DNA from: Candidatus Nitrotoga sp. BS
GTDB taxonomy: Bacteria; Pseudomonadota; Gammaproteobacteria; Burkholderiales; Gallionellaceae
Length of the DNA: 64,000 nt
Direction of reading: 5' to 3'
Assembly (NCBI RefSeq): GCF_927797785.1
Contig: NZ_CAKMLL010000043.1
Span: forward strand, 1-64,000
A program made the position numbers and the translations under genes. This document shows positions 30,689-47,366 of this stretch, piece after piece; position 1 is the first letter of the stretch, and the number at the start of each line of letters is the position of its first letter. Under the pieces are notes generated by a model, which saw nothing but the letters and a program-made list of their open reading frames with translations, was not told where the DNA came from and did not search any database.

Positions 30689-31198
30689 ATGACCACTTAT
30701 ATGTACACTACGTCCGTACCCGTTTTCAAACAGCTATTGACCAGTCTCAGCGCTATTTTGATCAAGGCTGAAGCATATACTACCGAGAAAAAATTTAAAC
30801 CGACAGTATTATTGGATGCGCGGCTATTCCCTGATATGTTCCCTTTGAACCGCCAAGTGCAAATCGCTACTGATTTCGCCAAGAGCGTGTCAGCGCGGCT
30901 GGCAGATGTCGAGGTGCCAGCGTATGACGATAGCGAACAAACCTTCGCCGAGTTGCAGGCACGAATTAGCAAGGCTTTGTCGTTTATCGAAAGCCTAACG
31001 CCTGCACAATTCGAAGGCAGCGAAACGCGTGAAATTGTGTTACGCCCGGGCACACCGAAAGAGAAAAAAATGGATGGCCACACCTACCTATCCAACTAAG
31101 GTTTGCCGCAATTTTTCTTCCATGTCACAACGGCTTATGCAATTTTGCGGCACAATGGTCTAGAAGTCGGCAAAGGCGATTTTATGGGTGCCTATTAG
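30689..31198 (+). pseudogene. DUF1993 family protein with one premature stop
   Basis: The frame begins at ATG 30689 and reads as a DUF1993 protein (TSVPVFKQLLTSLSAIL, LFPDMFPLNRQVQIATDFAK, REIVLRPGTPKEKK). It meets TAA at 31097-31099 after HTYLSN. The same frame, without any shift, then continues GLPQFFFHVTTAYAILRHNG and ends at TAG 31196-31198 with GDFMGAY, the normal family C-terminus. Thus a single codon that should encode Tyr has become TAA. Total length would be 169 residues, normal for the family. The 136-residue product may be partly functional; I annotate it as a nonsense-interrupted gene. Confidence 0.8.
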
Positions 31199-31664
31199 GG
31201 TTTTTGAGTCTAGAGAACAATTCCAAGCGTTGCTCAAACAAGGCGTCCAGATTAAGAATGGGAACGTTTTCATCTACCAGTTGAAAACATGAGTGAGCGA
31301 TAGATGGCCATGCGGACGAATCTTGGGGTAGCAGACATGCTGCATCGTCACCGACGCTCACCGTGCGGAAATAGGCGGATAGCCCTAGGGCGCCCCATCG
31401 TTGCTCGCCGTTTGGTCGGGCAAAGTACGTAACCACCAGCGCAAGTTGGATTTTATCCAGAGAACGTTGGCCGATGAGCGGTGCCAGCTCCACGAATGGA
31501 ATGGCGTGATCCTGCCAAATACAAAGCGAATGACAGTAATCTGGAGCCAGCGGTACAGGTATAAGCTTAGGCGATAGAACGAGTTCAGCGACTTCGTGCA
31601 GGCCGATTGCTGCGTGGTGGCCACTTGTGAACTCAAACAAAACGGCGTTATTCCTTGTATTCAT
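31182..31664 (-). CDS. CheW-like adaptor protein
   Basis: This 160-residue CheW-domain protein is the last gene of the Chp-like operon. It shows the CheW beta fold in degenerate form: AVLFEFTSGHHAAIGLHEVAELVL, IPVPLAPDYCHSLCIWQDHAIPFVELAPLIG, then a C-terminal LVDENVPILNLDALF. The ATG at 31664 lies inside the end of the preceding gene (overlap about 17 bases), which suggests translational coupling. The open frame extends 15 codons upstream. Its 3' end overlaps the convergent DUF1993 gene by 17 bases. Two neighbouring CheW-like genes in a row may replace the modulatory PilI/ChpC pair known from Pseudomonas. Confidence 0.7.
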   Translation of the reverse strand: MNTRNNAVLFEFTSGHHAAIGLHEVAELVLSPKLIPVPLAPDYCHSLCIWQDHAIPFVELAPLIGQRSLDKIQLALVVTYFARPNGEQRWGALGLSAYFRTVSVGDDAACLLPQDSSAWPSIAHSCFQLVDENVPILNLDALFEQRLELFSRLKNPNRHP

Positions 31665-32097
31665 GCCTGCTCTCAGAAGATTTGATGCGACACCACAATG
31701 TACTGACATCGCAACAAAATGCGATACGCTCTTTTACCTGCACGTAAGCTTTGATCGGTGATTCGGAAATGCTCATGCATGCGGGTAAAGCATGCAGTTT
31801 TGGGTCTTGAATAGGGAGTGATTGAACCGAGTCCACAGTAATGCCGAAGCGGTGCTCATCTGCCTGTAGTACGACAATGTAGCGACAGCGTGTATCGATC
31901 TTGTCTGCCACGACCAATTGTGCAGTCAGCGAATGTACTTCGCATGCATCCCCTGCAATGACCTCGCTCGCTTTCACTTCATCATTTTTACCTTGTAATA
32001 CGATCATATTCTCGAGGGAGACGATCGCGTGTTGGTCGATGAGCAGATCCAGGCCGTCAAAACAGATCAACGCGTACCCGGCTGCGGCCGCGTTCAT
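31648..32097 (-). CDS. CheW-like adaptor protein
   Basis: This 149-residue protein has the CheW-type pattern ALICFDGLDLLIDQHAIVSLENM and later FGITVDSVQSLPIQDPKLHALPACM, with a short third part. It overlaps the upstream hybrid CheA gene by 4 bases (ATGA) and the downstream CheW-like gene by about 17 bases, so the three should be made together. CheW domains bridge receptors and CheA. This one is divergent in sequence and could be tuned to a distinct partner. Confidence 0.7.
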   Translation of the reverse strand: MNAAAAGYALICFDGLDLLIDQHAIVSLENMIVLQGKNDEVKASEVIAGDACEVHSLTAQLVVADKIDTRCRYIVVLQADEHRFGITVDSVQSLPIQDPKLHALPACMSISESPIKAYVQVKERIAFCCDVSTLWCRIKSSESRHEYKE

Positions 32098-35000
32098 TGC
32101 ACTCTGCCGATCGTGCCGTGGATGTGCCCGAGAAGGTCGGTGTCAGTGTAGGGTTTGGTCATGTATACGCTAACACCTGCGAGCTCTGCCTGTTTACGAT
32201 GTTTATCCATGGAGCGAGAGGTGATCATGATCACCGGCAGCTCGCGAGTGTCGGCGCGCGCGCGCAGGTGCGAGGTGAGTTCAAGCCCGTTCATGTTTGG
32301 CATTTCAAGGTCAGTGAGTATTATCCCGGGCATGAAATCTTTTAAAAGCGCGATCGCTTCTAATCCATCCTTTGCTGCTTTCACGTTATATCCTGCATCG
32401 CTTACGAGTTGTACGAGTGATTTGCGCACGCTAAGGGAATCGTCCACAACGAGAATGTCGCGTCGCGTTATCGCTTCAGAGTTGCTTGAGTTAATGGAGG
32501 TTGCGGCCTCGATCAATTGCGGCATGGGAAGACGCAGCAATTCAGCTAAATCGAGCAGCGGTGCGACGGTTCCATCACCCAGAATCGCGATGCCGCCAAC
32601 GCCATTAATCTTCTTTACATACCGGCCCGGATCCTTGAGGATCAGGTCACGACCGTCAACAATGCGGTCGACCAGCACCGCATGAATATCAAGGTCGACG
32701 TGAACAAGTAATACGGATTTCGAGTTCATGATTTCTGACGTCATCACGCCGCTGTCATAGCCTATCAGTGCACTCAGAGTTTTTACCGGATAGGTACGTT
32801 TTTGATAGCGCAGGTTTATTTCGCTGCCTATTGATATGAACTCTCCTGCGGCGGGTGGTAATGCTTGGTCCAGCGCATAGCTTGGTACCGCAAAAATCTG
32901 GGTGGAAGATTCTATGAGTAACGCATGCTGGGCGACAAGCGATGCCTGGAAGCGAAGTAGAAACTCGCAACCCTTACCGAACTCGGATCGTACTTCGACC
33001 ATTCCCTTCATGACAAGAAGTCGATCTCGCACTACATCGAGCCCGACGCCACGTCCCGATATTTCATTCGCGCGTTCTCGTGTTGAAAAGCCAGGAAGTA
33101 GAATCAAGCGTGACAGTTCTTCTTCAGAGACATCCTGGCCGGCTTGCATCAGGCCACGCTCGATTGCCTTGTTTCGGATCGCGCTGTAGTCGAGTCCGTG
33201 CCCGTCATCCCGGCAACGCACAGTGACCGTTTGGCCGCGCCTCGAGAACGTAAGATGAATGGTGGACACCTCCGATTTACCGGCGCGCGTACGTTCATCG
33301 GGTGTCTCAATACCATGATCAATGGCGTTTCGCAGTATATGCAGCAGCGGGTCGACAAGGTTGTTCAGCATGTCTCCGTCAATCAGGATGTCTTCCCCTT
33401 CGATTATCAGCTTTGCTTTTTTTCCTGTTTGCTGCGAGGTCTGGCGGATGTTGCGGTGCAGGCGAGGGGCGAGGCTTCCTACTGGGCTCATGCGAGTGGT
33501 CATAGCCATGTATTGAAGTTCGCGCTGTACTCGTTGCGTTTGCTGAAGTACGGCGCCCATCTGCGCCACGTCTTCTTCGATACGTCGACTGAACTCTCTG
33601 GTGTCGGCGGCTTCTTCTGTCAGTGCGCGGGTATTACTCTGAAGCTCGGTGTACTGTTCCATTTCCAGCGCATCAAATATTTGGTCACTGCGAGAGATTT
33701 TCGTTTCACGCAGACTCGAGAGGCCACGGATGTCAACCAGGTTCTCAAGATCAAAAATACGCTGCTGTACCTTGAGGTTCTGACGTAATAAGCCGTTAGT
33801 GCGTTGCTGAGTTTGCTTCACTTGCTCGGTAAGTTGGCCAATCTTTACAGATAGCTCGCCCGTGAGACGGAAGAGTTCGTCCATGGTTGCTACCGGGACG
33901 CGTAATATTGGGGCGACAGGAATCTGGTCGGTCACGTTGTTGGGCAGAGGAGCTTCAGGCAGAGAAGTTTTTTCTTCCCTGAAGGTTTCAGTCAGCGCTT
34001 GGTGTGTCTTGTTGTGGTGGACAGCTTCAATCAAAAGTGGAAGCGTCGTGTTGAGATTGGTGGTTTCTGTTTGAATCGAAAACGTTGCTTCGAGATCAGT
34101 GATTTCAGTTGGTGCTAGTAGCGAGGCGTCGAGATATGCATTGTCAGCTTGGATCAGAGGTGTCGTGTTGAGATCGTTGGTTTCTGTTTGAATTGCGAAC
34201 GTTGCTTCGAGATCGGTGATTTCAGTTGGTGCTAGTAGCGAGGCGACGAGATCTGCATTGTCAGCTTGGATCGGAGGTGTCGTGTTGAAATCGTTGGTTT
34301 CTGTTTGAATTGCAAACGTTGCTTCGAGATCAGTGATTTCAGTTGGTGCTGGTAGCGAGGCATCGAGATCTGCAAGCACAGGCGAAGTGGCATCGATTTC
34401 GTCCTCAATATTTCCTGAGTGAATCCAGCTTGCCCAATCGAGAACCGACTGTAATATTTCCTTCGACTGAGTCTGTGTGGGGGCATCCTCGATCCCGAGC
34501 AGGGAACCTATCATTTGTTCCAGGCAAGCTGTTGCATCGAGCAGTGCATTGGTAAGCGCCAGCGGTGGGCGTTTCTGGTTCTGCTCGAACCATTCGAGAA
34601 TGTCCTCAGTGTGGTGCCCGAGCGTCGCAATACCTCGGATGCCGACGATGCTTGCCGAGCCTTTTAACGAGTGTGCAATGCGTTTTGCTGCTGCCATATC
34701 CTCGTTCGTGGCTTCGCCGTCTACAATGTTGCGAATGTAGGTGGAAAGCTCGGCGGCCTGCGTTGGCGCTTCGTGCAGCAGCGCCTCGTACACGCCCCGA
34801 TCCACATCTGTTGGCAGGGCGAGCGAGAGGTCTTCATCAGTCGCCACGCGAGGACGTTCCAGCTCCTCGGCCGCTGCTTCTGCGCGTAAATACTCCGCTA
34901 GCACCGGCTCGGCGGTGAGCGCGATAATGAGTTCGAGATTGCCATCGGCATCCACTGGTGCAGGACAAGGGGGTTGGGAAAAGTGTTCTGCCAAGTGCTC

Positions 35001-35339
35001 TGCGGACTCGAAGTTCGTGATGTCAGCAAGATAGGCGAGCACAAGATCGGGCCAGAGATCGAAGAAGGTTTGCGCCGAGCTGCGTTCTTCCGCGTTAAGC
35101 CCAAAAATGACCACCAGGCATTCCTGTACCTGAGCGCAACAAGACTCCAAGCCGCGCAGCCCGAGCATTCCACAGGTTGAAGCCGTGCGATCAATCTGGC
35201 CAACATATTGATCGAGTGCGTCGCCGAATGCAGGATCCTCGGGGGTGACTGAACAGATCGTTGCGATCCAACCGGCAAGATCGGTGCGCGCTTCTTCGAT
35301 TTCGGTTAGTAGCGCTTCGATGAAATCGCTCATTTGCAT
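32094..35339 (-). CDS. Hybrid chemotaxis-type histidine kinase CheA/ChpA-like
   Basis: This 1081-residue cytoplasmic kinase has an N-terminal helical region that looks like a degenerate Hpt without the His (1-120). A true Hpt has the phosphoacceptor in AHSLKGSA (His 223), followed by a linker with a threefold 39-residue repeat (321-434). A dimerisation region then precedes HATPase (NAIDHGIETP, RDDGHGLD, GRGVGLDVV), a CheW-like domain, and a C-terminal receiver (955-1075) with Asp in ILTDLEMPNMNG and Lys in TKPYTD. The layout fits ChpA/PilL of twitching-motility chemosensory systems, but with fewer Hpt domains than in Pseudomonas. It lies between the receptor gene and two CheW genes. Confidence 0.9.
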   Translation of the reverse strand: MQMSDFIEALLTEIEEARTDLAGWIATICSVTPEDPAFGDALDQYVGQIDRTASTCGMLGLRGLESCCAQVQECLVVIFGLNAEERSSAQTFFDLWPDLVLAYLADITNFESAEHLAEHFSQPPCPAPVDADGNLELIIALTAEPVLAEYLRAEAAAEELERPRVATDEDLSLALPTDVDRGVYEALLHEAPTQAAELSTYIRNIVDGEATNEDMAAAKRIAHSLKGSASIVGIRGIATLGHHTEDILEWFEQNQKRPPLALTNALLDATACLEQMIGSLLGIEDAPTQTQSKEILQSVLDWASWIHSGNIEDEIDATSPVLADLDASLPAPTEITDLEATFAIQTETNDFNTTPPIQADNADLVASLLAPTEITDLEATFAIQTETNDLNTTPLIQADNAYLDASLLAPTEITDLEATFSIQTETTNLNTTLPLLIEAVHHNKTHQALTETFREEKTSLPEAPLPNNVTDQIPVAPILRVPVATMDELFRLTGELSVKIGQLTEQVKQTQQRTNGLLRQNLKVQQRIFDLENLVDIRGLSSLRETKISRSDQIFDALEMEQYTELQSNTRALTEEAADTREFSRRIEEDVAQMGAVLQQTQRVQRELQYMAMTTRMSPVGSLAPRLHRNIRQTSQQTGKKAKLIIEGEDILIDGDMLNNLVDPLLHILRNAIDHGIETPDERTRAGKSEVSTIHLTFSRRGQTVTVRCRDDGHGLDYSAIRNKAIERGLMQAGQDVSEEELSRLILLPGFSTRERANEISGRGVGLDVVRDRLLVMKGMVEVRSEFGKGCEFLLRFQASLVAQHALLIESSTQIFAVPSYALDQALPPAAGEFISIGSEINLRYQKRTYPVKTLSALIGYDSGVMTSEIMNSKSVLLVHVDLDIHAVLVDRIVDGRDLILKDPGRYVKKINGVGGIAILGDGTVAPLLDLAELLRLPMPQLIEAATSINSSNSEAITRRDILVVDDSLSVRKSLVQLVSDAGYNVKAAKDGLEAIALLKDFMPGIILTDLEMPNMNGLELTSHLRARADTRELPVIMITSRSMDKHRKQAELAGVSVYMTKPYTDTDLLGHIHGTIGRVQ
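34037..34375 (-). repeat. In-frame 117-bp tandem repeat in the CheA-like gene
   Basis: Near-identical units start at 34092, 34209 and 34326 (spacing exactly 117 bases, 39 codons). The third copy is partial and a leading partial copy begins near 34037. Each unit codes for LLAPTEITDLEATFAIQTET with a following DNLNTT-like part. Acidic and threonine-rich composition suggests a flexible linker. The spacing preserves frame, so copy number can vary without killing the gene. Confidence 0.85.
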
Positions 35340-35397
35340 TATCTATCGTCCTTAGGTCGAAGCACGGCGGCACAGGCGTACCGCTGTCATTGCAGGC

Positions 35398-37716
35398 TTA
35401 AATAACAGCTTGGAGTTTGGGCATGGCGCTCGTACGCTCTGGCATGCTCGACAATCCAAGAACATGAGCGCTAGGTAGCTTGAATACGCCCACCGCTTTT
35501 ACCAATTGTTCGGCGGATCGGGAGAGCAGGTTGGCTTCAGCTGTCTGAGTTGTAATCTGCTCCCCGGTCTTTTCTGCACTACGGCCAAGATCATCAACTT
35601 TGCTTTGCAGAATTTCCGCACTCTTGACCTGTACTTCTAAACTGGCAGCAATTTGCACCACCAAGTCCACCAGATTGTCGGTTGCTTTTTGTGTTTCCGC
35701 CATTTGAACACCGGCTTTTTCAGCGAATTCGGTTCCTTGTACCACTTGGGAGATTGTTTTGTTCACAGTGTTGATTGTGTCGTTCGTTTCGATTTGAATG
35801 TTATTTACCAACGTACCAATTTGCGCTGTAGCATTACGTGATGATTCGGCAAGGCGTTGAACTTCCTCAGCGACCACCGCAAAACCACGGCCAGCATCGC
35901 CTGCGACTGCGGCTTGTACGCTCGCATTTAACGCAAGTACGTGTGTACGTTCTGCGATGGTGTTGATCAAGTTCACGATACCGCTAATTTCTTGTGACCG
36001 TTCGCCAAGGCGCTTGATTCGTTTTTCGGTCTCGGCAATCATTTCACGGATTGAGTTCATACCCTGCATTGTTCCGGTTACGGCATTTAGCGCGGAGAGG
36101 GTTGAGCGGGTAGCATCGCCTGACGCAATGTGAGATTTTGCGGTGAGCTGCGCCACGTTGTTCATGGCTTGGGTTGAAGTGGCGAGCTCACGGATCATTT
36201 CCTCAACGCCTTTTCGTTCTATTTCAGAGGTTGCTTGCACCTGGTCGGCCTGTCCTTTGAGTTTGACCGAGGCATTTTCAACTTGGCCGGCAATTTGCAT
36301 TACCCTATAAAGCACTCTGCTCGTTTCTTCCGTGTTCTGATTTACGGCGTCAGACACTGTACCCACGATGTCCTGGGTGACCGGCGCTTTGGCCGTGAGG
36401 TTTTTATCCGAGAGTTTCTGCATGGTCTGCAGGAGCGAAATTACCGAGTCATTGAGTGTTTCGGTTTCTGCTTCAGCTTTGCGTTGCGCTGCCATACGCT
36501 CTTCCAATAGTTGGTTTACCGTCCGTCCTAAATCACCGACTTCATCTTGTGCGTCGATTGAGCCGAGTGCGGTGTTGTCTCCGTGCCGTACCTTTTCAAC
36601 TGATAGCTGTAGTAAGCGCACTGTTGCAGTGATGTTTCGTGTAATTAACAAGGCGAGAAGCGCCGCAAATATAATGAAGGCGATTACTACACCTGATAAA
36701 ACGAACGAACGTTTGAGCAGGCCGTCAACTTTGAGTTGCAATTCGTCATTCAGCACTGCCGTCGCGGTATCGATTAGTTTGAACTGATCGTTAATGCCGC
36801 TAGTGAATTGTTTTACATACTCCGCAGAGCTCAGCTTGATTCGTTGCGCATTAATGATTTCTGCGGCAGCCAGATCGGCCAGGCGTTTTATTTGTTCTTC
36901 AGCGATCTGGTCTTTGCCTGCAATTTTGTTCTTGATGCGCGTTTCTTCTGTCTGCGCTTTATTTAACTGAGTAATCGCTTGATTGGTTTTGGTTACCAAT
37001 GCGGAGATTAGCGTTGCCATTGTTGCGCGATCGGTTGAACTGAGCGCCTCATTGTCTAGTTCAGAGCCGGAATTTTGAGCGATGGTAGAACGCTCGGCTT
37101 CCGCAAGTCGGGCGGCTCCAAATGCCCGTGTTTGCCCAAGTGACTCAGATACTTGGGGCAAGTCGGACAGTGCGGCCTGAATTAAAAAATGCGTCGCGGC
37201 ATCTGATTCGAAAGAGAGTTTGTAATGATCCATTAGAAGATCAAGCAAGGTCATCTCGGTAGCGACCAATGTAGAGTGGTCAGTAAATGATTTGCGCGCG
37301 TTTGTGCGTTGGTTCGTGGTTTCGGCTGAAATTCGTGTCCAATTAGCCTTTATCTTGTCCCATATTTCGGCCTGCTTTGCATTGTTGTTATTTTTTACGT
37401 AGGGCTCGAAGGTGTTGATCGCTTGGACGACTTCCGCTTCTTTGGCGGCGCGGTCTGCGGTAACGGCAGTATTTCCGCCGATGAGAGCAGCGGATAAACC
37501 GCGGTGCTGCTGAGTATTCTGTATTAGTTTCAGCAGTTTTGATGCGGGGTCAATTCCGCTAGCCTCGAGCTTGGCGGTCTGAATGGCGGCGGTGGTTTGC
37601 GCCAAAAACAAGTAGGCGGGCACTCCGGCAGCAGGTAGCGCGACAGCGCCCAGAAGCAGGAACTTCTGCCATAGCTTCATCCGGGTAAGGAAGGTGATTT
37701 TCAGCTTTTTTTTCAT
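35398..37716 (-). CDS. Methyl-accepting chemotaxis protein, PilJ-like
   Basis: This 772-residue membrane receptor has a short cytoplasmic start, TM1 (about 15-37), a large periplasmic region (38-335) and TM2 (336-360). Then come HAMP and a signalling hairpin with the PilJ-type tip AERTHVLALNASVQAAVAGD and GRGFAVVAEEVQRLAESSRNA. The periplasmic part contains IQNTQQHRGLSAALIGGN, which resembles the nitrate/nitrite-sensing (NIT) family rather than PilJ of Pseudomonas. So it may sense a small ligand. It lies between the PilI-like CheW and the CheA. No cheR or cheB gene is in the cluster, so adaptation may lie elsewhere or be absent. Confidence 0.88.
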   Translation of the reverse strand: MKKKLKITFLTRMKLWQKFLLLGAVALPAAGVPAYLFLAQTTAAIQTAKLEASGIDPASKLLKLIQNTQQHRGLSAALIGGNTAVTADRAAKEAEVVQAINTFEPYVKNNNNAKQAEIWDKIKANWTRISAETTNQRTNARKSFTDHSTLVATEMTLLDLLMDHYKLSFESDAATHFLIQAALSDLPQVSESLGQTRAFGAARLAEAERSTIAQNSGSELDNEALSSTDRATMATLISALVTKTNQAITQLNKAQTEETRIKNKIAGKDQIAEEQIKRLADLAAAEIINAQRIKLSSAEYVKQFTSGINDQFKLIDTATAVLNDELQLKVDGLLKRSFVLSGVVIAFIIFAALLALLITRNITATVRLLQLSVEKVRHGDNTALGSIDAQDEVGDLGRTVNQLLEERMAAQRKAEAETETLNDSVISLLQTMQKLSDKNLTAKAPVTQDIVGTVSDAVNQNTEETSRVLYRVMQIAGQVENASVKLKGQADQVQATSEIERKGVEEMIRELATSTQAMNNVAQLTAKSHIASGDATRSTLSALNAVTGTMQGMNSIREMIAETEKRIKRLGERSQEISGIVNLINTIAERTHVLALNASVQAAVAGDAGRGFAVVAEEVQRLAESSRNATAQIGTLVNNIQIETNDTINTVNKTISQVVQGTEFAEKAGVQMAETQKATDNLVDLVVQIAASLEVQVKSAEILQSKVDDLGRSAEKTGEQITTQTAEANLLSRSAEQLVKAVGVFKLPSAHVLGLSSMPERTSAMPKLQAVI

Positions 37717-37756
37717 TTTGTTTCTCCAGTCGGGTCGTAATTTGAGGGCGGGTAAG

Positions 37757-38314
37757 TTAGCCTGATATTCTGCGCGCCATCATTTCGAAGAAGCGGATGT
37801 GGTCGAGCTCCAGCCACACCTGGGCTTCTTCTGCATAAGCGTTCGATATATAGTCGCGGATTGCCTCTGGGAACGCTGGAAGAGGAACTCGATTCGAGAC
37901 CCCGAAACGCTTGCGGTTCGGAATGCCGTTAACCACAATGGCGGCGATCGCATCACCGCGACCAAGCACGAGGAGCATTGATTTCGATTTCGTGTCGCAT
38001 GCGCCACCGACGAGCGATGCTAGGTCAAACACTGGCACAAGATTACCGTGAAGGTTCACCAGACCGAGTAACCAGCGGCCAGTGTTTGGAAGGCGAAAAA
38101 CAGGTAGCATTTCTGAAATTTCGTTTACTTGCGCGTGTGGCACCAGAAACTTAACGTTTTTGACCTCAAAGCCAATCCATTCCTGAGTTGTGGTGAGAGT
38201 CGCTCTGTGCCGTCGATTTAGTCCGATAGTCACGAGTGACCCTGCCGTGCGTGCCGGCTGCAGTGCCACGCTCGGCGCTAGCAGCGAATTAGCAGAATCG
38301 TTTTCGTTTTGCAT
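37757..38314 (-). CDS. CheW-domain adaptor, PilI-like
   Basis: This 185-residue protein has a clear CheW domain (about 45-180): EWIGFEVKNVKFLVPHAQVNEI, RWLLGLVNLHGNLVPVFDLASLVG, and MLLVLGRGDAIAAIVVNGIP. It precedes the receptor gene in the operon, as pilI precedes pilJ in Pseudomonas. It should couple the receptor to the CheA-like kinase. The N-terminal 40 residues are poorly conserved. Confidence 0.85.
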   Translation of the reverse strand: MQNENDSANSLLAPSVALQPARTAGSLVTIGLNRRHRATLTTTQEWIGFEVKNVKFLVPHAQVNEISEMLPVFRLPNTGRWLLGLVNLHGNLVPVFDLASLVGGACDTKSKSMLLVLGRGDAIAAIVVNGIPNRKRFGVSNRVPLPAFPEAIRDYISNAYAEEAQVWLELDHIRFFEMMARRISG

Positions 38315-38371
38315 GACTGTCTCGTACAGAATGGATCAGCAATATGGCATTCAAACGTGGGTACAAAATGC

Positions 38372-38734
38372 TCATAACGTGTTGACGAACCTGACGATAT
38401 CATCAGGTGTGTAGGGTTTAACGACGTATCCGCTACCCCCTTGCATTTGGCCCCACATTTTGTCTGCTTTCTGATCCTTGCTGGTAACAAATACGATAGG
38501 GATATCTTTGGTCATGGGGTCTTTTTTCAAAGCGCGGGTCGCGGCAAAGCCATCCATATCTGGCATGTTTACGTCCATGAAGATCAGATCCGGCTTCTCG
38601 GATTTGGTCATCTCGATCGCTTCCTTGCCATTGGCGGCGGTGACGACAAAGCGGCCTGTGCCGATTACGATTTTTTGAATATTGACAAGATCGGTATGTG
38701 AGTCGTCGACGCAAAGAACTTTCTTGACTGTCAT
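38372..38734 (-). CDS. Single-domain response regulator, PilH-like
   Basis: This 120-residue receiver has all catalytic residues: DDSH near 10-13, phosphoacceptor Asp in LIFMDVNMPDMDG (near 53), Ser/Thr in FVTSKDQ and Lys in VVKPYTPDD. MWGQMQGGSGYVVKPY is typical of the PilG/PilH class. There is no output domain, so it acts by protein contact or as a phosphate sink for the CheA-like kinase. It lies between the larger PilG-like gene and the PilI-like gene. Confidence 0.9.
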   Translation of the reverse strand: MTVKKVLCVDDSHTDLVNIQKIVIGTGRFVVTAANGKEAIEMTKSEKPDLIFMDVNMPDMDGFAATRALKKDPMTKDIPIVFVTSKDQKADKMWGQMQGGSGYVVKPYTPDDIVRFVNTL

Positions 38735-38782
38735 GGTTGCTTCTCCTTTAATTGGATTGAGTTAAATATAATGCGGTCGAGG

Positions 38783-39721
38783 TTAGGTATTCGTTGGTAG
38801 ATATTTGCTGATTACAGCGTAAAGCCGGTTTTCGTTGACCGGTTTTGTGAGGTAAGTATCGCAGCCAGACATGGTTGCCCGGATTTTGTCGAAAGTTGAA
38901 TCTTTGCTCGAGAGCATCACTACTGCAGTTTTTGCGGCTCCTTTTCTGGACTTGATAAGCTTGCAGACCTGATAGCCATTGATTCCTGGCATCACGACAT
39001 CAAGAAAGATGCAGGTGTAGTGTTTGGTGCCGCTGAGTCCAACCGCTTGTTCCCCTGTCTCGGCGAAATCGACATTAAAACCAAATGGCGCGAGCTTTAC
39101 GCGCATGAATTCACGCACAGTCATATTGTCGTCACAGACTAGAACCGAGTTAAGTTGGCGATCCGGCCGGCACACGGGTGCTACAAAGCTGCCTGTCAGG
39201 CTTTGATTCGTTGAGCCCGCCTTCAGCGGTGGTGTATTTGATATTTTTGGTAAAGTTGTCGAGGACGACGATGATCGCTGTGCTGGTATTGCGATCATCG
39301 GTTGAGTTTTATCTAAGGGAGGAGCTATACGAGCTGCAGGCTCTGGTTTGGGCATATGGCTTGTTTCGTTAATTCCCACTGCGAGATCGAATGCTTTGAA
39401 CAGCTTGGTCCATTGCAATGGTCGAGACAGCGTTGTGCACGAGATACCGTGATTGGTGTCGCCAACCAGGATCGCAGGCCGAGTGTTCGTGGAATTTTTT
39501 TGACGAAAATTCGCTATCGCACTCGCGTCTTCAGCATCAACGAGAAAAACATCTGGTGCCGAACCCATCGTCTGCATAAACTCGACAAATTTAGGCGCGC
39601 GACGTGCGGATAAACTAAAAATACTTTTCAAGATAATCCGTTCGGTCTGGCTGAAGCCTTGGACATCAACGGTGTATTGTGGTTTTGCCGATGGCACGGT
39701 TGTGGATGCTTCCATCATCAC
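38783..39721 (-). CDS. Two-domain response regulator, PilG-like, with N-terminal pseudo-receiver
   Basis: This 312-residue protein has a complete receiver in its C-terminal half (192-310), with DDNMT, Asp in CIFLDVVMPGINGYQVCKL and Lys in LTKPVNE. The N-terminal 130 residues look like a receiver that has lost its active-site residues (PDVFLVDAED, AILVGDTNHG, LSRPLQWTKLF). The linker is rich in Pro, Ser and Thr. Its ATG overlaps the end of the cyclase-kinase gene by 4 bases, so both are made together. In Pseudomonas PilG is a single receiver; this fused form is unusual. Confidence 0.8.
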   Translation of the reverse strand: MMMEASTTVPSAKPQYTVDVQGFSQTERIILKSIFSLSARRAPKFVEFMQTMGSAPDVFLVDAEDASAIANFRQKNSTNTRPAILVGDTNHGISCTTLSRPLQWTKLFKAFDLAVGINETSHMPKPEPAARIAPPLDKTQPMIAIPAQRSSSSSTTLPKISNTPPLKAGSTNQSLTGSFVAPVCRPDRQLNSVLVCDDNMTVREFMRVKLAPFGFNVDFAETGEQAVGLSGTKHYTCIFLDVVMPGINGYQVCKLIKSRKGAAKTAVVMLSSKDSTFDKIRATMSGCDTYLTKPVNENRLYAVISKYLPTNT

Positions 39722-41493
39722 ATATTTCCGATCAAACCTGATGAAATCATGTATTCAATAACCGCATCGGCACTCTCAAAGCGTGCTACGGCTGATTTGG
39801 CCATCATGCGATTCAGGATGGCTTGAAAGCGTTCGAGGCCCACGGGTAGTATGGGAATTGGGAGATGGACGTGTTGGTAAAGAATCGCCTGCACGGAGCT
39901 GCCTTTGTATGGCGGCCGTCCCGTTAACATTTCGTAAAACATAGCCCCCGTGCTATATATGTCGGTTCGCACGTCGACTGGAAGATCCAACGCCTGCTCA
40001 GGCGCTAGGTATGACGGCGAGCCCATGATTTCACCGGGGAGGGTAGGTAACCTGATTGCGTCGGAATGCTCGGCAATTCCGAAATCGGCGAGTGCAAGTG
40101 AGCCGTCTTTGCGAATCATCACATTATCGGGTTTCATGTCGCAATGAATGATCCCCAGTGCGTGAATCGCAGAGAGTCCGCCCAGAATCTGCAGCAACGA
40201 GGCGATTGCGATTTGCGGAGTGGGATAATCTGAGATTAGGCACCTTAAATCCCCGCCGGGGAAAAACTCCATTGAAATATAAGCGTGGGTTGATGTGAAA
40301 CCCTGATGATAGATGCGGGCGACGTTAGGATGATCAATTTGCGAAATTAGTGCGAACTCATGCAGAAAACGCTGCAATATGTTGTCGTTGTCGAAGTCGA
40401 TCGCTGTCGTCGGAATAAGTTTCAGTACTTGCTGGGTATGCGTAACAATATTTTTTGCGAGAAAAACCTCAGACATTCCACCTTGTCCCAATTTGCGGAG
40501 TAAGTGATAACCTTCCACTTCGATCGATTGACTTTGAGGAGTCTTCTCAAACGTGTATCCGGTGCTCGAACAAGGGTTTTGAATCAAGTCTGCCTGCTCC
40601 CTTTCTAATTCTAATATTGCTGTATTTACAACTACAGATTGGCTCAGCTTCTCGTAGAAAGCGTTATCAGTGTGCGAGCTTGCAGTGCGCGGATAGAGCC
40701 CAGTGACCTCTATGGCCTGAATTTGTTGTATGTCCCCTTGCATGGTTACTATGCCGCCACGGCCGAGCTGAAAACGACTTCCGGCAATATTTGCACAGGT
40801 GCGGCTTGTCGCTATGCTCCAGCCAATAGCTTTGGTCATCGCTTGCAGGCGTGCAGCGATATTTACTGTATCGCCGATTACGGTGGTTTTGATAGCGGTG
40901 CCACTGCCAATATTACAGAGCATTACATCACCTGAATGTATGCCGACACCGACTGCGAACTCCGGCAATTTCCGTTCCGGGAAGCGCTGCGCGATCCAAT
41001 CACGGAAAGTGGTGGCGGCGAGCACTATCAGGAGTGCCACTTTAAGCGCACGTTCGGCATGATCATCCGGTTGTTCCACTCTTGGCTCAAACATTGCCAC
41101 CATTTCATGACCGAGAAATCTCACCACCCATCCACACTGTTGACGGACTGGTTCATATGCTCGGTCAAAAAATGTATTCAAAAACTCAACAATTTCTTCG
41201 CTGTGAAGTCGGTCTGCGAACAAGGTAAAGTTACGAATATCGACGAAGAGCACTGAACCATAGATTGCGATTTGAGCCGCAGGAGCGATATTGCTGCCGT
41301 TGGATAGCTCGCCACGGGACAAAAAACTGGTATTGGTGCACTCATTGGTTTGGTACAGCAATGAACTATCACAGGTCGGAGCATATTTGGTGATATCGCC
41401 ATTTATTATCTTGTGCATGGTGTCGGCCTGCTTTAGATGCCGGGAAACGGCATCGGGCAATGCGGTATGCCCTATTTCTGATGATGTAATCAT
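39718..41493 (-). CDS. Class III nucleotide cyclase-like domain fused to a Ser/Thr protein kinase
   Basis: This 591-residue protein has an N-terminal cyclase homology domain (80-260) and a C-terminal Hanks-type kinase (325-590). The cyclase part keeps the first metal Asp (VLFVDIRNFT, D85), the dimer motif VGVGIHSGDVMLCNIGSG, and the Asn and Arg of GDTVNIAARLQ. At the second metal position the expected GD is GH (FLGHEMVAMF, H129). Catalysis is therefore doubtful. The kinase is complete: KLGQGGMSEVFLA, Lys in QVLKLIP, HCDMKPDN, LADFGIAE, and SPSYLAPEQ. It heads the Pil-Chp-like operon and is divergent from a PP2C gene. It may phosphorylate the FHA partner or the assembly ATPase. Confidence 0.85.
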   Translation of the reverse strand: MITSSEIGHTALPDAVSRHLKQADTMHKIINGDITKYAPTCDSSLLYQTNECTNTSFLSRGELSNGSNIAPAAQIAIYGSVLFVDIRNFTLFADRLHSEEIVEFLNTFFDRAYEPVRQQCGWVVRFLGHEMVAMFEPRVEQPDDHAERALKVALLIVLAATTFRDWIAQRFPERKLPEFAVGVGIHSGDVMLCNIGSGTAIKTTVIGDTVNIAARLQAMTKAIGWSIATSRTCANIAGSRFQLGRGGIVTMQGDIQQIQAIEVTGLYPRTASSHTDNAFYEKLSQSVVVNTAILELEREQADLIQNPCSSTGYTFEKTPQSQSIEVEGYHLLRKLGQGGMSEVFLAKNIVTHTQQVLKLIPTTAIDFDNDNILQRFLHEFALISQIDHPNVARIYHQGFTSTHAYISMEFFPGGDLRCLISDYPTPQIAIASLLQILGGLSAIHALGIIHCDMKPDNVMIRKDGSLALADFGIAEHSDAIRLPTLPGEIMGSPSYLAPEQALDLPVDVRTDIYSTGAMFYEMLTGRPPYKGSSVQAILYQHVHLPIPILPVGLERFQAILNRMMAKSAVARFESADAVIEYMISSGLIGNM

Positions 41494-42101
41494 TTGTCCA
41501 CACCAAAATATATATACTTGTGGAGAGATGAGAAATGCTCAAAATTTTCGATAACTGGGTTCATGGCCTGCATTCTTAATGCTTGGATGATCATGACAAT
41601 GCCGCCCCGATTTACCGTATGCTGCAAGTCATAATTAGCCGCTGCTAGTTGAAATAGCGGATAAGCTTTGAAAAACTTTAGCTCAACTTTGATGTTTTTA
41701 TTTGATTGGTGTGCAGTAACAGATTGCCACTTTATACTCAGCGTAAATATGTTCTGCCATATTTCAGTTCGCCGTTGATATGCGTGGTGGGCCGAAAAAA
41801 TGTTACGCTAAGAAAGTGGCAATCAATAAAATTGAGAATGCATGTCGCTGGAATCTCATACTGGCCTGGAAATATTTGTATAGGTAAGCATCGTAAGTCA
41901 TTGGCGAAGCAAGTTGAAACGCGTTACCATGTTGGCGCTGGAATGACTGGGGTATTTGTCCGTATGTGGCAAGTTGCATGTATAAAACAGGTTGCTCCTA
42001 CTATCGTTGCAATATGGTTTTGCGAGTGCCCAGTCGCTTGCCAGCTTAAATTGACTAGTAGCGTCACGCTTAGAATTTTGAATGTATAGAGATACCCTAA
42101 T
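41494..42101. other. Divergent regulatory region with a long inverted repeat
   Basis: About 610 bases separate the minus-strand Chp operon from the plus-strand PP2C operon. One open frame (41706-42089, 127 codons) has no protein-family features and is probably chance. The notable structure is an imperfect 22 to 25-bp inverted repeat, 41722-41746 and 41803-41824 (listed separately). Promoters for both operons should be here. Confidence 0.5.
41722..41824. repeat. Inverted repeat pair in the divergent control region
   Basis: The left arm GATTGCCACTTTATACTCAG plus CGTAA (41722-41746) is the near-complement of the right arm TTACGCTAAGAAAGTGGCAA plus TC (41803-41824), with a small bulge. The 56-base spacer shows no gene. 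It may form a large hairpin in RNA or a cruciform, or be the ends of a miniature element or an invertible segment. Confidence 0.7.
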
Positions 42102-42944
42102 ATGTATATCGAACAGGCGTTAGAAATCGTTAGTCAGACTCACCCAGGTGTTGTGCGATCGCAAAACGAAGATTGCGTGGAGTTTGACGTGTCGTGTGGG
42201 TTAGTTGTGCTGGCTGATGGTATGGGTGGTCATAATGCAGGTGAAATTGCAAGCAGCATTACAGTTTCACTGATATTGACCGAAATAAAGCATAGCTTGG
42301 AAAACATGCGCCCTGAAGAGCGGGGTGAAGGTGGTGAAGATGTTGGAGTGATGCTGTTGCGCGAAAAATTGCAAAAAGCCAATACTGCTATCTACAATGC
42401 GTCGCTGAGCCAGCCACAATGTGCTGGCATGGGTACTACGGTGGTGGCCGGGCTATTCTACGATAACCGTTTAGCAGTCGCCCACGTAGGTGATTCGCGT
42501 ATGTACCGGTTGCGTGGCGCAATATTTGAGCCAATTACTCGTGACCATTCTCTGTTGCAGGAGCAAATCGACAGAGGCATGCTGAGCCCAAAAGATGCGC
42601 GACTATCCAGGAATAAAAATCTGATTACGCGTGCGGTCGGAGTTGATCCAGCGGTTGAGGCGGAAATTCACGTGCATGCGGTGCAAGTAGGCGATATTTA
42701 TCTACTATGCTCTGATGGTTTGAACGATATGGTCGAAGATGATGAGATCGGTACCAGGTTGCATATGCTGCGTGCCAATCTCCAGCTGATGGCGAAACAG
42801 TTGATTGAAATGGCAAATGATAATGGTGGGCGTGATAATGTATCCGTGATACTGGTTAAAATTAACGGTGAATTTGCCGTGCCGCGGGGCTGGCTCGCAA
42901 AAATGTTGTCCTGGTTCAAGTCAAGAATTAAATACGGGGATTGA
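42102..42944 (+). CDS. PP2C-type Ser/Thr protein phosphatase
   Basis: This 280-residue phosphatase has the PP2C metal residues in NEDC (near 22-25) and LADGMGGHNAGEIAS, then MGTTVVAGLF, VAHVGDSRMYRLR, LCSDGLNDMVEDDE and GGRDNVSVILVKI. This is the Stp1/PrpC pattern. The insert MRPEERGEGGEDVGV is unusual but lies in a loop. It should reverse phosphorylation by the kinase encoded divergently at 39718-41493. The stop is 4 bases before the ATG of the FHA gene, so both form an operon. Confidence 0.92.
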   Translation: MYIEQALEIVSQTHPGVVRSQNEDCVEFDVSCGLVVLADGMGGHNAGEIASSITVSLILTEIKHSLENMRPEERGEGGEDVGVMLLREKLQKANTAIYNASLSQPQCAGMGTTVVAGLFYDNRLAVAHVGDSRMYRLRGAIFEPITRDHSLLQEQIDRGMLSPKDARLSRNKNLITRAVGVDPAVEAEIHVHAVQVGDIYLLCSDGLNDMVEDDEIGTRLHMLRANLQLMAKQLIEMANDNGGRDNVSVILVKINGEFAVPRGWLAKMLSWFKSRIKYGD

Positions 42945-42948
42945 TGAT

Positions 42949-43746
42949 ATGGCGGCAAAACTGATGCTAAGCATGGATGGTGTGGTGTTGCAGGAATATG
43001 CTCTGGACAAGGAACGCATGACGATAGGCCGCAGGCCGAGCAGTGAGATCGTAATTGATAACATTGCTGTTAGCGGTGAGCACGCTGCAATCGTAACCAT
43101 ACTTAATGATTCCTTTCTGGAAGATTTGGATAGTACCAATGGAACCTTGGTAAATGATGTGGCAATTAAGAGGCATTTTTTGCAAAATAATGACGTAATC
43201 GAAATTGGCAAATATAAACTCAAATATTTGAACGATCAGCAAAGCCCATCTACTGCGGCAGATTTTGAGAAAACAATGGTATTTCGTGCGTCTCCTCATA
43301 TCGCATCCTCCACCCCAGTGAAAGCTGATCCGTCTGAAATGTCAGAGAGGTCAAATCCTACTGAGCAACCACAATCAACACCCGCCGAGAAAGCGCTTGA
43401 ATTGCGACAGACTGAGGCTGCCACATCGCCACAGCCTGCTCGTGTACCGTCAGCTGAGATAGCGCCGCCTGACTCACAGCAAGCAATGGGGGTAATACAG
43501 ATACTTACCGGACCTAATGCTGGAAAAGAGCTTGAGCTAGTTAAAAATTTGACTACCGTAGGAAAAGCTGGCTTGCAAGTCGTCGTGTTTACACGTCGTC
43601 CGCGTGGTTATTTCGTCACTCATGTGGAAGGAGCAAGTTACCCTAATCTTAATGGCAAGCCGCTGGACGATCAACCGCGCCAGCTTAATGAGAACGACAT
43701 TATTGAGTTGGCGGGGATCAAAATGGAGTTTTATTTAAAAAGGTGA
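42949..43746 (+). CDS. Protein with two FHA domains
   Basis: This 265-residue cytoplasmic protein has an N-terminal FHA domain (about 20-85) with the phosphothreonine-binding pattern GRRPSSEIVIDNIAVSGEHA and DLDSTNGTLVN. After a Pro/Thr-rich linker a second, looser FHA-like fold follows at the C-terminus (GKELELVKNLTTVGKAG, SYPNLNGKPL, ENDIIELAG). The start is ATG 42949, with GGGG a few bases before it; the frame is open upstream inside the PP2C gene. FHA domains bind phosphothreonine, so it is a likely reader of the adjacent kinase and might link it to the assembly ATPase encoded next. Confidence 0.85.
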   Translation: MAAKLMLSMDGVVLQEYALDKERMTIGRRPSSEIVIDNIAVSGEHAAIVTILNDSFLEDLDSTNGTLVNDVAIKRHFLQNNDVIEIGKYKLKYLNDQQSPSTAADFEKTMVFRASPHIASSTPVKADPSEMSERSNPTEQPQSTPAEKALELRQTEAATSPQPARVPSAEIAPPDSQQAMGVIQILTGPNAGKELELVKNLTTVGKAGLQVVVFTRRPRGYFVTHVEGASYPNLNGKPLDDQPRQLNENDIIELAGIKMEFYLKR

Positions 43747-43828
43747 GGGCCTGTTTCACAGAGGGCTTTATGCGGCACAAGCCGCTAACCTACACTATTA
43801 CATCATTGAAACCACCTTCTTCTATTCA

Positions 43829-43968
43829 TGACGCCTCTAAAAATCCAATTGTTGTCACAATGCCGCATAACTCGAAAAAATAATTACTTACCTATCACTA
43901 TATGCTGCGCTAGAATTTTTTTCTTGTGCCTTGCCTTGCCTAAAATCTTGAATTTTTAGAGGTGTCTT
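43829..43968. repeat. Dispersed AT-rich repeat with inverted ends, copy 2
   Basis: This copy is bounded by GACGCCTCTAAAAATC (43829 onward) and its near-complement GAATTTTTAGAGGTGTC (ending at about 43967). The core is an A-run, CACTATATGCTGCGC and a T-run. It lies between the FHA gene and the ATPase gene. The core resembles 2165-2245, and the ends resemble the end at 54467-54485. It may be a non-autonomous mobile repeat that also serves as a terminator. Confidence 0.65.
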
Positions 43969-44068
43969 GAAGAATTTTCGCTAAATGCCGCTATCTTGAT
44001 AGCGAGCAACAAAGTTACGCATTCACACCATGTAGCAAGCCACATTTGGAGTTATCAGGGAGAAGTAG

Positions 44069-46495
44069 ATGGATCATGAACCAGTAATACGGCTAGAACG
44101 ACGGGCCAATGTTAGCCACATTGAGGCTCAACTGGCATTCACGAAAAATCTTAATTCCGTCATAAGCAATATTCATGACCACGTCATAAGCAAGATCGAC
44201 ACTGCATACGATTTTGACGAAATTATGCTGGAAGTAAGCAAGGATATCTGCACGATATTCAATGCTGATCGCATCACTATTTATTCACTGGATAAAGACA
44301 AGACTACGCTGATTTCAAAAATAAAGACCGGGGCCAATTCATTCAGAGATCTCAAGTTACGCATTACTGAGCAAAGCCTCGCTGGGTATGTGGCACTAAA
44401 TAAAAAAATACTTAACATCTCGGATGTATACGATGAGAACGAGCTCGCTTCGCATAGTGTCAATCTACGCTTCCTACAAGACGTAGATCAACGCACAGGT
44501 TATCGTACCAAGCAAGCTCTTGTAGTGCCCATACTCGATCCAGATAGCATGAATCTGGCGGGTGTCATTCAGGTTCTGAATAATAAGATAGACCAACCTT
44601 TTTCGAGGATGCTAGTAGATGGAATATTGGAACTAGCGCAGAACTTGGCGGTGGCGCTGCGCCAGAGTCAGCAGCCTGCTGCTAAAACAAAATACGATTA
44701 CTTGGTTTATGACGCGGTGTTATCTGCCGACGAATTAGATCTGGCCATGTCCACAGCGCGGCGTAAAAATTCTGACATTGAAGATGTGTTGCTCGACGAA
44801 TTTCAGGTTAAACCGGCCGCACTTGGTAAAGCGCTTGCACTGTTCTTCGGTGTGTCCTATGAACCGTTCAAGACTAATCGCACCAGACCATCCGATTTAC
44901 TCAAAAATCTGAAACGGGAATATATAGAAAGCAGTCAATGGGTGCCGATAGATGAGATAAAGGAAGGCTTGGTAATACTTACCACTGATCCAGAGAGGAT
45001 ACAGACCTCACGCGTGGTGAACAACGTTTTTTCGAGGAGCCGACTGCTTTACAGAGTGTGTTCGCAGCGCGAATTCAATGCAACTCTCAGCTTGTTCTTT
45101 GGCGGAGGTGGGGTCGGTGGCAAGCTGGGTGACTCGGAAATGGACGGCACCTCAATGGATGAGATGCTTATCGCCATGGGAGGAGATGAAGAAGAGCCTG
45201 AAGATATTATTCAGGAGGAGGCAAGTGCAGCGGCAGACAATGAACTGGTGAAGCTGGTTAACAAGATTATCATGGATGCCCACAGGATGGGCGCTTCCGA
45301 CATTCATGTCGAACCCGCGCCGGGCAAAGGCAAGACCGTGATTCGTTTGCGCAAGGATGGTTCTCTGTTACCTTATATTGAAGTGCCATCATCCTTCCGC
45401 AACTCACTGGTTACACGTATAAAGATAATGTGTGATCTTGATATTTCGGAGAAGCGCCGTCCGCAGGATGGCAAGATCAAGTTCAATAAATATGGGCCAC
45501 TGGATATTGAGTTGCGTGTTGCTACCATTCCCTCTCAGGGCGGCATGGAAGACATCGTGATGCGTATTTTGGCCGCCGGCGAGCCAATCAAGCTTGACGA
45601 GCTGGGTCTGTCGGCACGTAATTTGGAAACCCTGAAAGCGGTGGTAAGCAAGCCTTACGGCCTGTTTTTTGTATGTGGTCCGACCGGATCCGGTAAAACG
45701 ACCACTTTGCATTCCGTTCTTGGCCACATTAATAAGCCTGAGACCAAAATCTGGACGGCAGAAGATCCGGTAGAAATTACACAGAAGGGTCTGCGTCAGG
45801 TGCAAATTAACAAAAAGGCCGGTATGGATTTTGCCACCATCATGAGGGCATTTTTGCGCGCCGACCCAGACGTAATCATGGTGGGTGAAATGCGCGACAA
45901 GGAAACGGTTTCCATCGGCATAGAAGCCTCGCTTACCGGTCATTTGGTGTTCGCCACCCTGCACACCAATAGCGCGCCGGAATCCGTCGTACGATTATTG
46001 GATATGGGTATGGATCCATTTAATTTTGCAGACGCTCTGCTAGGTGTTCTGGCGCAACGTTTAGCCAAACGTTTGTGCAAGAAGTGCAAAAAACCACATA
46101 CCGCCACTCAAGACGAACTCAAATTATTGCTTGCTGAATATTCGACAGAGCTTATGGACTGCGCGCTCTGGAAAAAAGATGCCAATGCTGCTTACAAGGC
46201 ACTGTACACTGAATGGGTCAAGCTGTTTGCTGATGAAATGGGGAAATTTACCTTGTATGAACCGGTTGGCTGTGAACATTGTTCCGGCACAGGCTATCGC
46301 GGACGGGTGGGTTTGCATGAATTAATGGTAGGCACTGACCTGATAAAAAAGAATATTCAGGAACACGCCAGAGTCGCGGAAATTTATGCCAGCGCACTCA
46401 ACGAAGGCATGCGCACCCTGAAGCAAGATGGCATTGAAAAAGTTTTGTCCGGCATCACCGATATGCATCAGGTGCGTGTTGTTTGCATAAAGTAA
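44069..46495 (+). CDS. GspE/PilB-type assembly ATPase with N-terminal GAF domain
   Basis: This 808-residue secretion/pilus ATPase has a GAF domain (about 41-205), an N1 (MshEN-like) domain (215-340), and the catalytic core with Walker A GPTGSGKTTTL (near 536), an Asp box, Walker B RADPDVIMVGEMRD (near 600) and the His box HLVFATLHTNSAPESVVRLLDMG. Two CxxC pairs (CKKC near 670, CEHCSGTGYRGR near 734) form the usual zinc finger. An insertion of about 45 residues lies between the two CxxC pairs. GGGAG precedes the ATG. Fusion to GAF suggests control by a small ligand such as a cyclic nucleotide, fitting a cyclase-like gene nearby. The pilin gene follows after a terminator. Confidence 0.9.
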   Translation: MDHEPVIRLERRANVSHIEAQLAFTKNLNSVISNIHDHVISKIDTAYDFDEIMLEVSKDICTIFNADRITIYSLDKDKTTLISKIKTGANSFRDLKLRITEQSLAGYVALNKKILNISDVYDENELASHSVNLRFLQDVDQRTGYRTKQALVVPILDPDSMNLAGVIQVLNNKIDQPFSRMLVDGILELAQNLAVALRQSQQPAAKTKYDYLVYDAVLSADELDLAMSTARRKNSDIEDVLLDEFQVKPAALGKALALFFGVSYEPFKTNRTRPSDLLKNLKREYIESSQWVPIDEIKEGLVILTTDPERIQTSRVVNNVFSRSRLLYRVCSQREFNATLSLFFGGGGVGGKLGDSEMDGTSMDEMLIAMGGDEEEPEDIIQEEASAAADNELVKLVNKIIMDAHRMGASDIHVEPAPGKGKTVIRLRKDGSLLPYIEVPSSFRNSLVTRIKIMCDLDISEKRRPQDGKIKFNKYGPLDIELRVATIPSQGGMEDIVMRILAAGEPIKLDELGLSARNLETLKAVVSKPYGLFFVCGPTGSGKTTTLHSVLGHINKPETKIWTAEDPVEITQKGLRQVQINKKAGMDFATIMRAFLRADPDVIMVGEMRDKETVSIGIEASLTGHLVFATLHTNSAPESVVRLLDMGMDPFNFADALLGVLAQRLAKRLCKKCKKPHTATQDELKLLLAEYSTELMDCALWKKDANAAYKALYTEWVKLFADEMGKFTLYEPVGCEHCSGTGYRGRVGLHELMVGTDLIKKNIQEHARVAEIYASALNEGMRTLKQDGIEKVLSGITDMHQVRVVCIK

Positions 46496-46910: not shown

Positions 46911-47366
46911 ATGAAACAAATGCAAAAAGGTTTTACCCTGATCGAATTAATGATCGTGGTCGCGATAATTGGAATTTTGGCAGCCGTTGCAATTCCGGCT
47001 TACTCGGATTATGTGGTGAAGGCTAAGCTCGCAAAAGTCGCATCTGCTGTGGATCCAATCAAGCTTGCTGTTGCCACGTTTATGCAGGAAAATGGTTCTG
47101 CCGCACTGCTAACTGCTAATAACTGGACTTCTTTGGGGATGAGCGGAGCTCCAACTGCAACCACAGAGGTTACAGGTATTGCTGTGACGGCTACAACTGG
47201 CGCTATCGTAGCTACTCTCTGTGGTTCTGGTTGCATTAAGACTTCACTCAATGGCGCGACTATCACTTGGCTTCCAGCAATGGGAACGTCGGCTATAACT
47301 TGGACGGTAACTCCAAGTGTTACGTCTGACACAGTTTTGAATAACATCCTTTCCAAGTGGATTTAG
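46911..47366 (+). CDS. pilA: Type IV major pilin-like prepilin
   Basis: This 151-residue prepilin has a short leader MKQMQKG and cleavage before Phe 8 in [19 protein letters not shown], with the essential Glu at mature position 5. The hydrophobic helix is followed by a small globular part rich in Thr and Ala. The only two cysteines (C104 and C108, in LCGSGC) are four residues apart, unlike the usual wide C-terminal disulfide loop. AAGGAG lies 9 bases before the ATG. A sigma54 promoter lies upstream and a strong terminator downstream, so it is expressed as a single highly active unit. Confidence 0.92.

Follow-up and report, generated by a model that had tools for sequence, protein, structure and literature searches.

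Known control of the type IV pilus motor runs through cyclic di-GMP (c-di-GMP), PilZ, FimX and the Pil-Chp chemosensory system. Neither GAF nor FHA is mentioned in a 2024 review of PilB control (PMC11656802). Here, we describe a locus of Candidatus (Ca.) Nitrotoga sp. BS—contained in a window of 64,000 nucleotides, positions 1 to 64,000 of contig NZ_CAKMLL010000043.1, from a genome of 3.1 Mb (G000; 121 contigs, 99% complete)—in which genes for a Ser/Thr kinase, a PP2C-type phosphatase and an FHA reader adjoin the gene of a GAF-bearing pilus assembly ATPase (hereafter GAF-PilB), with a chemosensory gene set beside them. This gene neighborhood suggests that the pilus is under a phosphothreonine switch of a type known so far from other pathways. 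The minus-strand run (31182–41493) comprises two CheW-like adaptors, a ChpA-like hybrid CheA, a methyl-accepting chemotaxis protein (MCP), PilI, PilH, PilG and a cyclase-kinase fusion, and the plus-strand run encodes PP2C, the FHA protein, a GAF-MshEN-T2SSE ATPase and a pilin (Table 1). Open reading frames (ORFs) and Pfam/NCBIfam matches bore out the places and strands of all genes named in a preliminary description of this DNA; the "several" four-base junction overlaps that it had reported exist as well, at exactly two junctions, CheWa/ChpA-like (32094/32097) and kinase fusion/PilG (39718/39721).

Table 1 Features of the chemosensory and pilus-motor locus (positions within the window)
Feature	Position	Strand	Supporting match or remark
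CheWb, CheW-like adaptor (second)	31182–31709	–	Pfam CheW, 28.2 bits (cut-off 23.5)
CheWa, CheW-like adaptor (first)	31648–32097	–	Pfam CheW, 18.9 bits, weak, below cut-off 23.5
Hybrid CheA (ChpA-like), 1081 aa	32094–35339	–	Pfam Hpt, HATPase, CheW, REC
MCP receptor in PilJ-like position	35398–37716	–	Pfam MCPsignal and HAMP; NIT-like periplasmic domain
PilI-like CheW	37757–38314	–	Pfam CheW, 64 bits
PilH-like single-domain response regulator	38372–38734	–	Pfam Response_reg, 88 bits
PilG-like response regulator with N-terminal extension	38783–39721	–	Response_reg at residues 193–304
Class III cyclase-Ser/Thr kinase fusion	39718–41493	–	Pfam Guanylate_cyc, 49 bits; Pkinase, 144 bits
PP2C-type Ser/Thr phosphatase	42102–42944	+	NCBIfam NF033484, 236 bits (cut-off 230)
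FHA protein (FHA1, linker, FHA2)	start probably 42949, to 43746	+	Pfam FHA
EKTMVFR motif, proposed phospho-switch site	43267–43287	+	Codons 134–140 of the ORF starting at 42868
GAF-MshEN-T2SSE pilus assembly ATPase (GAF-PilB)	44069–46495	+	Pfam
Type IV pilin	46911–47366	+	Pfam N_methyl and Pilin
Membrane protein with TPRs, directly 3′ of the pilin gene	47496–49136	+	Pfam TPR; kept in the genus

With the Pil-Chp system of Pseudomonas aeruginosa, the locus shares the PilG-PilH-PilI-PilJ-ChpA-CheW set and its order, a hybrid CheA with a receiver (REC) and the tie to a cyclase and to pili. It differs in the length and descent of its ChpA (1081 aa and in a separate clade, as opposed to 1650–2000 aa for the canonical ChpA of the order), in having a NIT-like receptor instead of one with a PilJ domain, in the absence of PilK and ChpB from the operon, and in its cyclase, which is fused to a kinase and damaged. 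The FHA protein resembles the actinobacterial GarA/OdhI proteins in its first FHA domain (FHA1), which is nearest to OdhI/GarA, in a near-invariant E-x-T-x-V-x-R motif and in its kinase and PP2C partners; unlike them, it carries the motif behind the FHA domain, possesses a second, degenerate FHA domain (FHA2) and has the pilus motor as its proposed target, whereas GarA/OdhI act on 2-oxoglutarate metabolism. PilB proteins with an MshEN c-di-GMP domain, or under FimX/PilZ control, are likewise type IV pilus assembly ATPases with an MshEN-like N-domain, but GAF-PilB has an additional GAF domain, has lost the c-di-GMP motif and is partnered by PP2C and FHA proteins. Finally, DgcB of Bdellovibrio provides a case of FHA-based control outside Actinobacteria—with the PDB entries 6hbz, 6hc0 and 6hc1 matching the FHA domain of the window—in which the domain is reported to form part of a diguanylate cyclase, unlike the separate protein seen here (PMC6733907). 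The individual components all belong to known classes; what appears new is that a GAF-bearing pilus motor is in fixed association with a GarA-like FHA protein and that a second Chp-like operon has captured this pair, a combination of which we found no description in the open-licence papers searched.

We tentatively favor, at a confidence somewhat short of even, a scheme in which the pilus motor is subject to a GarA-like FHA switch that the kinase and PP2C control. Within this scheme, we infer the chemosensory-to-kinase step and the binding by the FHA protein; the gene partnership, its age, the swap of the neighboring kinase and the assignment of the motor are established by sequence comparison. 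The kinase would phosphorylate the threonine within the FEKTMVFR motif of the FHA linker, and the phosphothreonine would fold back onto FHA1, as in GarA/OdhI. The folded FHA protein would bind GAF-PilB differently and so alter pilus extension, with PP2C resetting the FHA protein. In the Nitrotoga clade, a REC-cyclase-kinase fusion that arrived with a second Chp-like operon would have supplied, through its kinase half, the substitute for the original membrane-bound CHASE2 kinase. The kinase would then be set by ChpA, PilG/PilH and a receptor of the NIT type (nitrate/nitrite-like). Since the fusion has lost its receiver here, and since the pilG-like gene overlaps the kinase gene by four bases, PilG is the likely link to the kinase. 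Possible, if doubtful, is the broader claim that a phosphothreonine-FHA switch of the GarA/OdhI type acts directly on the type IV pilus motor in many Burkholderiales, replacing c-di-GMP control, and that in Ca. Nitrotoga it has come under a nitrate/nitrite-type chemosensory array via the kinase of a REC-cyclase-kinase protein. If true, Ser/Thr phosphorylation would be a widespread added control of pilus extension, accessible to test through one conserved threonine, and a chemosensory pathway would have been re-plumbed by kinase exchange, in organisms whose movement may be directed towards nitrite or away from it.

The FHA switch is proposed because the phosphothreonine site of FHA1 is intact, OdhI and GarA are the nearest PDB sequences to this domain, and a FEKT-type motif is near-invariant within an otherwise variable linker. 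In an alignment of 39 homologs, the phosphothreonine-binding residues of FHA1 (GR, S..H, NG) are kept, while those of FHA2 are missing; the gene previously described as double-FHA thus encodes one domain with a phosphothreonine site and one degenerate copy. The linker between the two domains varies except for [DE]FEKTMV(L/F)R, with FEKT, FERT or YEKT present in 38 of the 39 rows (the G014 locus being counted twice). This motif is similar, not identical, to the phosphorylated segment of GarA, VTVETTSVFRADFL, which is of the ETTSVFR type (PMC8546545). Across 1.35 million residues of six-frame ORFs, [DE][FYW]E[KR]T occurred 44 times, 40 of them within these FHA proteins. One further occurrence lies in a kinase of another genome of the family, G028 (C42, locus L100, 3199–5328, minus strand), whose C-terminal tail, SQDFEKTQPLPR, holds DFEKT as in the FHA linker and is perhaps an FHA docking site. 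We rejected DFEKT in kinase tails as a general rule, having seen it in G028 only; it remains a lead.

Within the genus, at least 11 of the 13 genes stand in the same order in ten other genomes with contigs spanning the locus—all 13 in nine of the ten, the contig of G013 stopping after GAF-PilB—which argues that the arrangement is not due to chance. Parts of the locus lie on two contigs in G018 (L049, L098), both ending in insertion-sequence-like DNA, and in G014 PP2C, FHA and GAF-PilB sit at a contig end, with neither the fusion nor ChpA found in the genome. In G018, the insertion-sequence-like DNA lies ahead of PP2C and where the cyclase and kinase regions meet, and a class III cyclase was not found in this genome.

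Outside the clade, we compared 28 GAF-PilB loci from many families of the order (the outgroup), with genes tallied by our own count. PP2C and FHA genes precede GAF-PilB in 25 of these loci, with a large Ser/Thr kinase ahead of them in 21; in 19, the gene between FHA and GAF-PilB, directly before the latter, encodes a cyclase. CHASE2 was confirmed in both the kinase and the cyclase of the two outgroup cassettes tested, and a chemosensory operon was found at none of the 28 loci. In the ten spanning genomes of the genus, the fusion kinase occupies the place of the CHASE2 kinase. Because the outgroup cassettes carry a CHASE2 kinase and cyclase and no chemosensory genes, we conclude from gene content and order that the pilus-side cassette (PP2C, FHA, GAF-PilB and a kinase) is old and that the chemosensory operon and the fusion are later neighbors in the former place of the CHASE2 kinase. 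Kinase, phosphatase and FHA reader, whose connection to the motor had been suspected in the preliminary description, accordingly form a real unit with it that is conserved as an order-wide cassette, with a putative GarA/OdhI-like phospho-motif in the FHA protein. The co-occurrence of the two divergent operons in relatives, proposed there as a check, holds for the genus, where they are adjacent, and not elsewhere, where the cassette comes with CHASE2 proteins.

A tree of the ChpA core resolved two clades, each supported at 100/99: the window type, shared with G028, G025 and G034, and the canonical type found across the order. These three genomes carry both types, and the window genome carries the window type only. 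Long branches meet between the two clades (a program warning), and their mutual placement was not relied on. On this tree, the window ChpA is a lineage separate from the canonical ChpA of the order, and the operon is not an ortholog of the usual Pil-Chp operon. The earlier label "Pil-Chp-like" therefore fits the joint presence of PilG, PilH, PilI, a receptor and a hybrid ChpA in one operon, and fails for the descent of ChpA and for the receptor: PF13675 (PilJ) is present in the canonical L108 receptor and was not found in that of the window. The outer domain of the window receptor (36697–37599, minus strand) resembles PF08376 (NIT) instead (E 1.4e-4; 22.8 bits, below the cut-off of 24.9; profile positions 1–222 of 239), and a NIT match scored in one of six receptor homologs. 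A PDB profile search with the outer domain gave no match, and its structure model was poor (predicted local distance difference test score of 50). The pseudo-receiver previously reported for the PilG-like protein is not confirmed: its first ~120 residues gave no match among Pfam models or PDB entries.

Among the 158 genomes examined in the family, 13 carry the fusion, namely 12 of the genus and G028. The window ChpA type, at >50% identity, occurs in the same 13 genomes as the fusion, the latter taken as best matches with the same operon type. One contig of G028 encodes a REC-cyclase-kinase followed by PilG, PilH and PilI, a second PilJ, ChpA and two CheW proteins, and a third a large kinase of the 847-residue type with PP2C; G028 thus looks like an intermediate in which both kinases are present and not joined. 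We tie the kinase to chemosensing because the REC-cyclase-kinase gene adjoins PilG-PilH-PilI in G028 and because fusion and ChpA type share 13 genomes. In two other metagenome-assembled genomes of Burkholderiales/Betaproteobacteria, the fusions start with a receiver and have no chemosensory genes nearby; judged against these homologs, the N-terminal receiver is lost in the window clade. The locus could also consist of two independent neighboring modules—the Chp-like operon acting on the pilus through PilG and PilH as usual, and kinase, PP2C and FHA protein serving another process. Consistent with this, the two parts are not adjacent outside the genus, and G025 and G034 carry this Chp type with no kinase nearby. 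However, PP2C-FHA-GAF-PilB is kept across many families of the order, the kinase gene belongs to the chemosensory operon both in the window clade and in G028, and both parts are missing together from G004, all of which makes independence of the modules unlikely.

Several observations weigh against the favored control of an FHA switch by a chemosensory kinase. The 13 co-occurrences of fusion and ChpA amount to only two independent lineages, and the window ChpA type does without a neighboring kinase in G025 and G034, as noted above. The clade kinase is non-RD (HCD) and its receiver is gone, so that the chemosensory input to it is a step that we infer. Moreover, the FEKT motif follows FHA1, whereas the site of GarA/OdhI precedes the FHA domain.

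The two halves of the fusion differ in their state. By alignment, the kinase half keeps the Gly-loop, Lys, catalytic Asp, Asn and DFG, with HRD replaced by HCD in the clade, and a ratio of nonsynonymous to synonymous substitution rates of about 0.08 (compared with about 0.16–0.20 for the cyclase) indicates that it is strongly constrained. In the cyclase half, the first metal Asp and the Asn and Arg are intact; the window copy alone has His for the second metal Asp (GHE for GDG), and Arg stands for the adenine Lys throughout the clade, with residue roles (metal Asp, adenine Lys, catalytic Asn/Arg) assigned by the general pattern of class III cyclases. The window copy hence does not hold the active-site set of a class III adenylate cyclase, and, as aligned, the cyclase site is damaged in the window genome, where no second class III cyclase was found beside the fusion. 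This renders a CyaB-like cyclic AMP (cAMP) route doubtful here. The cyclase of G008 (L042) shows another sign of decay, its catalytic Arg being gone (NIAAH).

The same defects bear on a second-messenger route, in which the cyclase product would bind the GAF domain of the motor directly, and kinase, PP2C and FHA protein would tune the cyclase. In sequence, the GAF domain indeed has its nearest counterparts in PDE2A GAF-B and in the cAMP-binding GAF domains of CyaB2 from cyanobacteria (1ykd, E 9e-24), its Foldseek list includes the Lcd1 GAF with cAMP, and a cyclase gene directly precedes GAF-PilB in the 19 outgroup loci mentioned above, with CHASE2 in the two tested. Yet the only class III cyclase found in the window genome is the damaged one, without the second metal Asp; Arg replaces the adenine Lys clade-wide; one relative is without the catalytic Arg; the NKFDE motif of the GAF domain is incomplete; and the best structural Z score belongs to a PtsP GAF. 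We consider this route improbable: relatives whose CHASE2 cyclase is intact may use cyclic-nucleotide control of the GAF domain, which is unlikely in the window genome. Fold comparison as a guide to the GAF ligand was set aside as not discriminating, since it did not single out nucleotide-binding GAF domains.

The proposed switch on the pilus motor presupposes that GAF-PilB is that motor. Five T2SSE proteins scored above the cut-off in the genome: one on contig C23, that of the window, and three of the PilT kind (two of these three tested by model). The C23 ATPase passes the GspE model TIGR02533 (668.9 bits, cut-off 630), and its gene stands ahead of those for GspF and GspG within an operon for type II secretion. 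Because this GspE belongs to type II secretion and the other T2SSE proteins are of the PilT kind, GAF-PilB is, on gene content, the only candidate pilus assembly ATPase of the genome. Further pilus genes lie elsewhere (PilC on C98, PilM and PilQ on C56, PilT and a second PilT-like protein on C121); PilC (L118, C98: 12442–13665) stands alone, with neither PilB nor PilD beside it, and the third PilT-like ATPase (L106, C30: 9586–10725) is away from PilT/PilU. In G004, a genome of the same genus that is 100% complete, one GspE-like and one GspF-like protein are kept, while GAF-PilB and PilC are absent, as are the ChpA-like protein and the fusion. Matches to GAF-PilB at E < 1e-20 numbered one in G004 as opposed to four in the window genome, and the searches suggest that PilT and PilU are gone from G004. 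The presence of GAF-PilB thus follows the pilus genes and not those for type II secretion.

A role of the GAF-ATPase as the motor of type II secretion, or of some other pseudopilus, is hardly tenable, and already contradicted: its score below the curated PilB cut-off (TIGR02538; 476.7 against 675.65 bits) speaks for it, but the ATPase also falls below the GspE cut-off (437 against 630 bits), its gene is followed by a pilin gene throughout the genus, as it is at about 16 of the 28 outgroup loci, and we rejected the assignment on the type II secretion locus having its own GspE and on the gene content of G004, in agreement with the preliminary description. The c-di-GMP motif of MshEN, RLGxxLVxxGxL, is missing from all 41 aligned GAF-PilB sequences, with a KYDYLV-type sequence in its place; the GspE of the window genome retains it (RLGEWLVEQGKL).

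Among the products of the genome is a molybdopterin enzyme of 1169 residues that begins in a Tat-like manner (RRSFLK) and shows the Mo-site pattern Y-4x-D-11x-QM described in the NxrA of Ca. Nitrotoga fabula (PMC6050957); complete relatives have three copies of this NxrA-like enzyme. Given this NxrA signature, the host is very probably Ca. Nitrotoga (Gallionellaceae), a probable nitrite oxidizer. The alternative of an ammonia oxidizer was set aside on this signature; a search for ammonia monooxygenase gave no match, a result that carries no weight alone since its control had no match anywhere either. The NIT-like receptor domain, of a nitrate/nitrite-sensing kind, sits in a probable nitrite oxidizer. 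In streamlined lake Nitrotoga, pilus biogenesis, motility and chemotaxis are reported to be missing (PMC9239080). In the divergent promoter region, the best CRP-like site matched at 7 of 10 positions, which is not meaningful, and the promoter scan gave results no different from shuffled sequence. On the pilus side, the TPR membrane protein encoded next to the pilin gene (47496–49136) may act on the pilin.

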